Origin: Sphingobacteriaceae bacterium
GTDB taxonomy: Bacteria > Bacteroidota > Bacteroidia > Sphingobacteriales > Sphingobacteriaceae
Assembly: GCA_947460875.1 (NCBI GenBank)
Contig: CANHGR010000001.1
Coordinates: 232,681 to 288,123 of the forward strand
Direction: 5' to 3'
DNA: 55,443 nucleotides
The position numbers and the translations under genes are program-made. The notes beneath the pieces were generated by a model that saw only the letters and a list, made by a program, of their open reading frames with translations, ran no database searches and was not told where the DNA came from. Shown piece by piece: positions 26,020 to 27,724 of this stretch (positions within the stretch are counted from its first letter, which is position 1; each line of letters starts with the position of its first letter).

Positions 26020-26661
26020 TAACTAACAAAACTAATATTTCTCCAGTAAATATCATCAATCTGCATAGAATTTATTACTGAAGCGATGGTTTCTTTAATT
26101 GATAGGAAATTATTTAGTTGAGTAGTTGAAATCTATTTTACGCTAAATGTGTTATTACTCTAAAAGCCTTATGCAACTTAGTTTTCATGGCGCAGTCCGC
26201 GACGTCACAGGCATCTTTTGTATTTTTAATTATTCTTTTTCAGTAAATTTTTCTATTAGAGTATTAATTTCTGAATAATTAAAATATTCTGGGTCTTAGT
26301 CGTGATTGCTGGCTTTTGAATATTGCTCAGGCACCATTTAATTCCTCATCCGCAACAAAATTTACTATGAAATACGGCTCGTTATTGTTGCGTTGATAGA
26401 AGTGACTTATAAAGTTGGGATGACTGAAGCTATCTGTTCAGGCGGCCAAAACCTCGCTGAATACTTTGTAGTAGGCTGCGGAGTCGACTTTTTTAAATAC
26501 CCGGTTTTTTGTTTCCTTAAGCAAAACTGCACCGATGTCAGATCTAGATTTTTTGAATGATTGTTAGGTTGTAAATAGGATTAAAAATAGAATTTCGTGC
26601 CGTTTAATGGACTGTTTTAGAAACATATTGTGTTAAGATAGATGTTTGAAAAAGATAATAA
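26020..26661. other. gene-free region upstream of the his operon
   Basis: About 640 A/T-rich bases with no intact gene. The minus strand carries one protein-like frame with a single internal stop (listed separately at 26327-26563). The plus strand shows nothing up to the his promoter. Confidence 0.5.
26327..26563 (-). pseudogene. possible protein remnant of unknown family
   Basis: The minus-strand frame runs 79 codons with one internal TGA (26440-26438). It gives pieces that look protein-like (SDIGAVLLKETKNRVFKKVD, AAYYKVFSEVLAA, then SHPNFISHFYQR and EPYFIVNFVADEELNG). There is no start codon and I do not recognise a family. Chance opening in this frame cannot be excluded. Confidence 0.3.
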
Positions 26662-26693
26662 TTTGAGTTTTCAAGACGTATGACTTATATTTG
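26662..26693 (+). promoter_or_regulatory. consensus promoter of the his operon
   Basis: TTTG at 26662-26665, a 20-base spacer and TATATTTG at 26686-26693 match the Bacteroidota -33/-7 consensus exactly. Transcription should start near 26698, ~47 bases before the leader ORF and ~175 bases before hisG. Confidence 0.85.
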
Positions 26694-26744
26694 CATCAAA
26701 AGAATTTGAAAAGAGTTCTTGATATTAATCAGAAACCAAATAGC

Positions 26745-26846
26745 ATGCCAGTAGTATTCAGACATCACGCACATCTTCATCATCATCGCAAGAGCGATGA
26801 AAATATGATATGCTTGTTTCTTCGTGAAACTGTTTCTATTAAATAA
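26745..26846 (+). CDS. putative histidine-operon leader peptide (33 aa)
   Basis: ATG at 26745, TAA at 26844-26846. The peptide begins MPVVFRHHAHLHHHRKSDEN, with six His among residues 7-14 (codons CAT CAC GCA CAT CTT CAT CAT CAT). It lies between a consensus promoter and hisG, 26 bases before the hisG start. A dense run of His codons at this place is the hallmark of ribosome-stalling control by charged tRNA-His. The His codons also form the 5' arm of an RNA hairpin. No U-run terminator is seen, so the mechanism could be translational. Function is inferred; the sequence pattern is direct. Confidence 0.8.
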   Translation: MPVVFRHHAHLHHHRKSDENMICLFLRETVSIK

Positions 26847-26852
26847 TTGCGG
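26779..26852 (+). promoter_or_regulatory. RNA hairpin and alternative pairing in the his leader
   Basis: CATCGC (26784-26789) pairs with GCGATG (26794-26799) around loop AAGA. The stem is extended after a 5-base bulge by ATCAT (26779-26783) with ATGAT (26805-26809). The 5' arm is made of His codons. The alternative TCGCAA (26786-26791) with TTGCGG (26847-26852), one wobble included, excludes the first stem and lies ~20 bases before hisG. Confidence 0.5.
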
Positions 26853-26872
26853 TCTGATTAAAAAATAACAAC

Positions 26873-27724
26873 TTGAAAACACTCAAAATAGCTATCCAAA
26901 AATCGGGTAGGTTAAACGAAAAATCCGTAGAGCTTCTAAAGAATTGTGGATTAAGCTTTGAAAATTACAAAAGCTCTCTCATATCTCCCGTTTCAAATTT
27001 CCCTTTAGAAATACTTTTTCTGCGTGATGACGATATCCCTGAATATGTCCAAGACGGTATTGCCGACTTAGGTATCGTCGGAGAAAATGTGATTAACGAA
27101 ACAGAAGTAGATGTAGACTATTTACAACTACTAGGATTTGGAAAATGCGCGCTAAAAATCGCAGTGCCAAATAATAGCACGATAAACACTCTAGCGGATC
27201 TCAATGGAAAAGCCATCGCTACTTCTTATCCATCTATTCTTAAAAAATTCCTTGCCGAAAATAAGATTGAATGTGAGATCAGAACGATTTCCGGCTCAGT
27301 TGAAATTGCACCTGGCCTTGGGATGAGCGATGCAATTTTCGATATTGTTTCTACCGGTGGCACATTAAAAAGTAACGGTTTAAAAACTTTTACAGACGTA
27401 CTTTCATCGGAAGCGGTACTCATTGGTCGTAAAGGCGAAGCAAACAATCCTCTAGTTCAAGAACTTATTCAGCGGATCCAATCTGTACTTAGAGCCAAGG
27501 AAACCAAGTATGTTGTTCTTAATATTGAGAGTAAAAATTTGGAAACCATCAAGGCATTGCTTCCAGGTGTTAAAAGTCCGACGATCATACCATTGGCAGA
27601 AGAAGGCTGGGTAGCGGTACATACCGTAATTCCGGAGCAGGATTTCTGGGGCAAAATCAACAAACTTAAAGCTGCGGGTGCCCAAGGAATAGTGGTAATG
27701 CCAATTGAAAAAATAATACTGTAA
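26873..27724 (+). CDS. hisG: ATP phosphoribosyltransferase, long form
   Basis: A 283-residue enzyme of the first histidine step, joining ATP and PRPP. It starts at TTG 26873 (KTLKIAIQKSGRLNEKS); an in-frame TGA at 26855 excludes any upstream start. It includes the catalytic bilobal region (GIADLGIVGENVI; GLGMSDAIFDIVSTGGTLKSNG with the PRPP loop) and the C-terminal ~75-residue regulatory domain typical of HisG-long (GVKSPTIIPL, VVMPIEKIIL). That domain usually mediates feedback inhibition by histidine. It is the first gene of the his operon. Confidence 0.96.
   Translation: MKTLKIAIQKSGRLNEKSVELLKNCGLSFENYKSSLISPVSNFPLEILFLRDDDIPEYVQDGIADLGIVGENVINETEVDVDYLQLLGFGKCALKIAVPNNSTINTLADLNGKAIATSYPSILKKFLAENKIECEIRTISGSVEIAPGLGMSDAIFDIVSTGGTLKSNGLKTFTDVLSSEAVLIGRKGEANNPLVQELIQRIQSVLRAKETKYVVLNIESKNLETIKALLPGVKSPTIIPLAEEGWVAVHTVIPEQDFWGKINKLKAAGAQGIVVMPIEKIIL

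Follow-up and report, generated by a model that had tools for sequence, protein, structure and literature searches.

Leader Peptides and Attenuation of his Operons

In Proteobacteria, the control of his operons by leader-peptide attenuation is a classical mechanism, and it has been predicted in some Firmicutes (PMC9413887). In the enterobacterial his leader (Rfam RF00514), a short His-rich peptide is encoded directly before hisG, ribosome stalling acts as the sensor, and the RNA can adopt mutually exclusive structures. The locus described here shares the peptide, its position and the mutually exclusive structures, and presumably also stalling as the sensor, but it has no intrinsic terminator and uses different helices, one of which reaches the hisG initiation region. 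To the knowledge of Naville and Gautheret in 2010, leader-peptide systems had been shown only in Proteobacteria and Actinobacteria (PMC2965389). Leader-like sORFs have been noted in B. theta (PMC7366714), and a term search of a his-gene survey covering the Bacteroidota superphylum yielded no leader peptide there and attenuation for enterobacteria only (PMC8305728). No description of a Bacteroidota His leader was found in the literature searched. The abstract of Vitreschak et al. (2004) reportedly lists Bacteroidetes/Chlorobi among the groups with some candidate attenuators, and Bacteroidota his leaders may have been predicted in that earlier work. The sensor is of a known kind in a little-charted phylum; what is new is the predicted switch without a terminator.

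The Bacteroid-trp RNA precedes trp operons. Like the leader described here, this RNA (RF01692) is a predicted cis-regulatory element of Bacteroidetes (PMC2864571), although it concerns tryptophan rather than histidine. The actinobacterial LEU element is a predicted combination of a leader peptide with an RNA structure that reaches the initiation site of the first gene in the absence of a terminator (PMC1262725), and in this respect it is similar to the present system. In the LEU element, however, the amino acid is leucine and the Leu codons pair with a Shine-Dalgarno box and there is a pseudoknot, whereas the leader described here has no Shine-Dalgarno sequence and its long-range helix (P1) joins the leader 5' UTR with the region upstream of hisG.

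The his Leader and Operon of the Window

The window is the whole 55,443-nucleotide stretch of Sphingobacteriaceae DNA that was analyzed, and the leader features described below all lie on its plus strand. A Bacteroidota-type promoter can be read directly at 26662–26693 (TTTG at 26662–26665, N20 and TATATTTG at 26686–26693), exactly as the first-pass annotation had proposed, and TATATTTG is kept in aligned relatives. The promoter is followed by an ATG-started ORF of 33 codons (26745–26846, with the stop codon TAA at 26844–26846) that encodes the peptide MPVVFRHHAHLHHHRKSDENMICLFLRETVSIK. Residues 7–14 of this peptide read HHAHLHHH, again as claimed, and the His control codons (residues 7, 8, 10, 12, 13 and 14) occupy 26763–26786. 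The leader stop lies 26 nt before the TTG start of hisG (ATP phosphoribosyltransferase; 26873–27724, plus strand), the identity of which is backed by matches to TIGR00070 and TIGR03455. This is the first gene of a hisGDCBHAF-hisIE operon, in which it is followed by hisD, hisC, hisB (bifunctional), hisH, hisA, hisF and hisIE.

A cluster of six His in eight codons far exceeds what chance would give. When the 250 nt upstream of hisG were subjected to 20,000 dinucleotide shuffles, an ATG ORF with at least four His in eight codons arose in 18 of them, one with at least five in a single shuffle, and one with at least six in none. The window has the short ORF, rich in codons for the end product and placed right before the operon, by which an amino-acid attenuator is recognized. 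Upstream of the promoter, between a BatA-like gene on the minus strand and the his promoter, there are approximately 600 nt (26020–26640) with no recognizable gene, and three small ORFs tested within this interval have no match to a Pfam family.

The RF00514 covariance model gave no match in the window at the gathering threshold and none in 10 relatives at E≤5, and RF01692 likewise gave no match in the window or ten relatives. At gathering and relaxed thresholds alike, no Rfam family was found for the Sphingobacteriaceae leader. Sub-threshold RF00514 matches (36.7 and 33.9 bits, cut-off 49) were obtained for two Bacteroidota relatives that carry a terminator (L197 and L203, respectively).

Conservation of the His Leader

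Relatives were collected through hisG, comprising 80 named relatives and further Sphingobacteriaceae genomes. Sampling at the order level yielded Sphingobacteriaceae only, and other lineages were covered by sampling at the class and phylum levels. A short ATG ORF with at least four His in eight codons precedes hisG in 113 of the 119 regions from Sphingobacteriaceae, as compared with 0.2% of shuffles, and at least five in 99 of the 119, as compared with 0% of shuffles. Among other Bacteroidia, 42 of 59 regions have at least four (0.08% of shuffles). Absence of a His-rich ORF from close relatives had been named as the observation that would speak against a leader peptide; instead, almost every member of Sphingobacteriaceae has the ORF, and so do many other families of Bacteroidota. 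Class- and phylum-level sampling placed His leaders before hisG in many other Bacteroidia families and in some other lineages, while none were found in several of the phylum-sampled families (f63–f66, f68–f71, f76, f77, f79, f81 and f86). Two Sphingobacteriaceae upstream regions (L120 in G008 and L131 in G066) contain no recognizable His leader. A group of small Sphingobacteriaceae genomes (G005, G010, G055 and related genomes) have no hisG match at all and may belong to histidine auxotrophs.

Across the Sphingobacteriaceae leaders (for example, MILVFTHHMHAHHRHCGDR, MNKVFTHHVHFHHRFAAMVK and MNGIALHHLHLHHHHVVIS), the His cluster is kept while the peptide flanks differ, which is the pattern expected of a sensor. 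These results support the reading of the ORF as a leader peptide that senses histidine, and such a sensor is nearly certain, with ribosome stalling as its presumed mechanism.

RNA Structures Within and Beyond the Leader

The RNAalifold consensus contains covariation in hairpins H and E, the only two helices that it found. Hairpin H (26783–26800; TCATCGC-AAGA-GCGATGA) is located in the last His codons, and in 8 of 20 relatives G-C/A-U changes on its two sides compensate each other. Hairpin E (26816–26830; GTTTC-TTCGT-GAAAC) shows a two-sided C-G to G-C change in 6 of 20 relatives, and most relatives have the loop UACGU or UACGC. The long-range helix P1 is formed by a 5' strand upstream of the leader ORF (TTAATCAGAAACC, 26725–26737) and by segment F (GGTCTGATTAA, 26851–26861), which lies 12–22 nt upstream of the hisG start. 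In the window, the minimum-energy fold (z of −2.4 versus shuffles) has P1 as its outer helix. The alternative helix P4 has as its 5' strand segment N, corresponding to leader codons 2–6 in the window (26748–26762), and as its 3' strand segment E3 (26824–26832), the switch segment common to E and P4 that was identified by the pairing test and the footprint model. The absence of P1 and P4 from the RNAalifold consensus is explained by their changing too fast to be aligned.

Consequently, P1 and P4 were probed using an own-versus-swapped test, in which the pairing of leader segments is computed both within a leader and between leaders of different species; the own combination is expected to be the stronger one only where selection has maintained the pairing. 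In a comparison of 21 segment pairs, the leader 5' UTR with positions −34 to −8 of hisG (S1:F, corresponding to P1) gave p=1.2e-4 with 25 representatives, and leader codons 2–10 (S2) with the stretch right before E gave p=5.7e-4. A finer division into 36 pairs, with N defined as leader codons 2–7 and E3 as the 3' arm of hairpin E, left S1:F (p=1.2e-4), N:E3 (p=4.3e-4) and E5:E3 (p=4.6e-5) as the sole three pairs that stand out both by the Wilcoxon test and by permutation (2e-4 each). Since E (E5:E3) and P4 (N:E3) share segment E3, the two helices are mutually exclusive. Compensation between N and E3 can also be seen by eye, as UUUCAC-type segments face GUGAAA (L002, L005), CUUGAA faces UUCAAG (L136), ACUCGC faces GCGAGU (L128) and GUUUUGA faces UCAAAAC (L150). 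P1 is weak in several Mucilaginibacter loci.

Terminators and the Mode of Output

The His leaders of other Bacteroidia occupy the same place and encode the same His-rich peptide as those of Sphingobacteriaceae, and in several of them the early codons can, by eye, pair with a segment after the stop (for example, L153). They differ in having GGCTTACC..GGTAAGCC-type terminators with antiterminators and a hisG that starts with ATG. Outside Sphingobacteriaceae, a G+C-rich hairpin followed by a U-run (for example, AGGGCTTACC..GGTAAGCCCT-TTTTTT) is present after 55 of 74 leaders. An antiterminator, defined as a leader-stop segment (for example, GGGTAAGC) that pairs with the 5' arm of the terminator better than 95% of shuffles (p≤0.05), is found in 32 of these 55 loci. 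This is the anatomy of a classical attenuator. His leaders with no recognizable terminator also occur outside Sphingobacteriaceae (L184 and L186 in f15, L177 in f2, L221 and L244 in f74), and some of these have a palindrome resembling CATTCCTCTTGAGAGGAAT at their stop. The terminator may have been lost more than once.

By the same and by looser criteria, a G+C-bearing hairpin with a U-run after the leader was found in 0 of 118 Sphingobacteriaceae loci, and the window, where no such element lies between leader and first gene, is one of these. The three raw matches obtained in one of the scans correspond to hairpin H within the leader. Hairpin E was considered as a terminator and rejected, as most loci, including the window, lack a U-run behind it. 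Classical transcription attenuation through an intrinsic terminator, for which the anatomy outside Sphingobacteriaceae offers a precedent as enterobacteria do, is consequently an improbable account of the family, even though six loci (L013, L134, L137, L141, L143 and L145) have an A+U-rich E of 6–7 pairs followed by four to seven T. The first-pass annotation had seen the same logic here as in enterobacteria. As regards sensing this is correct, but it does not extend to the output in this family, where no intrinsic terminator follows the leader and the conserved RNA points to the initiation of hisG.

The start codon of hisG also sets the family apart, with TTG (51) or GTG (47) in 98 of 102 compact Sphingobacteriaceae loci, as opposed to ATG in 55 of 59 loci of other members of the class. 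The start codons bear on a further alternative, namely Rho-dependent attenuation, in which translation of the leader would expose or hide a Rho loading site between the leader stop and hisG. A role of Rho has been proposed for mycobacterial cys leaders that likewise have no terminator (PMC1262725), and it would fit both the missing intrinsic terminator and the C-rich stretches found behind E in many relatives. At this place the window lacks a C-rich stretch, however, and Rho would explain neither why the long-range helix P1 to the initiation region of hisG is maintained nor why the TTG/GTG start is near-universal. A Rho-dependent output is thus considered unlikely, and the output in Sphingobacteriaceae is most likely translational.

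A second terminator-less design occurs in the Sphingobacteriaceae genus g5 (L130, L132, L135 and L138), which has a long His leader (for example, MITKKHIALHHRTHHHGHHHHCA), a conserved ATCGCAGCGAGTTTTAGTATCAATC after the leader stop, and a hairpin (for example, GGTTGG..CCAACC in L132 and L138) immediately before an ATG-started hisG. The evidence is evenly poised as to whether Sphingobacteriaceae turned an ancestral, terminating His attenuator into a translational one, a change in which the terminator would have been lost, the E/P4 switch and helix P1 would have taken over, and hisG would have moved to TTG or GTG in a phylum that lacks Shine-Dalgarno sequences.

Proposed Switch and Modeled Ribosome Positions

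The reading that we favor, and consider somewhat probable, is a terminator-less his attenuator of Sphingobacteriaceae in which stalling at His codons flips the E/P4 switch and thereby controls initiation of hisG translation. When charged tRNA-His is plentiful, the ribosome would reach the leader stop, which in relatives precedes E by about 5 nt, and mask the 5' arm of E, leaving leader codons 2–7 to pair with the 3' arm of E as P4. P4 and P1 together would form a long rod, the base of which would occupy the 12–22 nt upstream of hisG and make initiation poor. When histidine is short, the ribosome would halt on the His codons and cover segment N, so that P4 would be lost. Hairpin E would then take the 3' strand, the middle of the rod would disappear, P1 would weaken, and hisG, with its weak TTG or GTG start, would be translated.

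The spacing of the leader elements is consistent with this scheme. Histidine is first encoded at codon 7 (median), directly after N, and the leader stop lies 5 nt (median) before E; N is covered by a ribosome whose A site holds the first His codon, and E5 by one at the stop. With footprints modeled in 89 loci, the expected number of E pairs is 1.2 with no ribosome, 4.4 with a stall at the first His codon and 0.4 with a ribosome at the stop. The corresponding values are 5.0, 0.25 and 4.3 for P4, and 11.9, 7.9 and 11.4 for P1. In this computation, mutually exclusive structures are set by the position of the ribosome, as E and P4 flip with the modeled footprint. Stalling gives E and run-through gives the P4/P1 rod, which is physiologically the right sign provided that the rod is inhibitory, as we infer it to be.

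P1 pairs with positions −22 to −12 of hisG and is maintained, and its effect on initiation was modeled. The opening energy of the hisG region falls on average from 5.76 to 5.26 kcal/mol upon a modeled stall, so that in this static model a stall alone yields a small gain at hisG, and P1 recovers to 10.5 expected pairs when the stall sits one codon further on. Given these two results, the link from the switch to hisG is a presumed one. A modeled ribosome at the leader start lowers the opening energy to 4.38 kcal/mol, more than the stall does, suggesting that ribosomes queued behind the stalled one may matter. In Flavobacterium, which has no Shine-Dalgarno sequence, secondary structure around the start codon tunes initiation (PMC6847099).

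With these leaders, Bacteroidota gain a widespread His attenuator. Leaders with and without a terminator, responding to the same signal before the same gene, form a natural pair in which a change from transcriptional to translational output is directly testable, and the Sphingobacteriaceae leader would be a defined example in which initiation is regulated although there is no Shine-Dalgarno sequence.

The Window as an Outlier

The leader length of 33 codons and the 26-nt gap to hisG, both of which the first-pass annotation reported correctly, are peculiarities of this genome rather than properties of the system. The median leader of Sphingobacteriaceae relatives has 19.5 codons and the median gap is 68 nt, and a gap below 50 nt is seen in the window only (1 of 118 loci). 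The alignment indicates that the usual stop just past hairpin H is gone, leaving the frame open through hairpin E and the stop shifted downstream. Loss of the stop by a frameshift arising from a shorter hairpin loop was considered and rejected, since the alignment keeps the frame through hairpin H and the stop is lost after it.

Because the stop lies past E, the rod logic is probably weaker in the window, where a terminating ribosome would open P1. In the opening-energy model, a ribosome at the leader stop of the window lowers the value for the hisG region from 8.5 kcal/mol to 2.8 kcal/mol, an effect that the relatives compared do not show. Such opening could suggest translational coupling, in which ribosomes would reach the end of the extended ORF, 26 nt short of hisG, open P1 there and initiate anew, and leader translation would itself drive hisG. 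Coupling of this kind is very unlikely, however, as it has the wrong sign, giving less hisG when histidine is short, and the leader stop of every relative is far away from hisG (68 nt upstream in the median). It is still less probable that the leader is a decaying relic in a 2.2-Mb genome that has lost the leader stop and with it is losing regulation. Its length and gap are indeed outliers among the 118 loci, but the genome retains all six His codons as well as P1, H and E, and formation of P4, with a bulge, is still possible.
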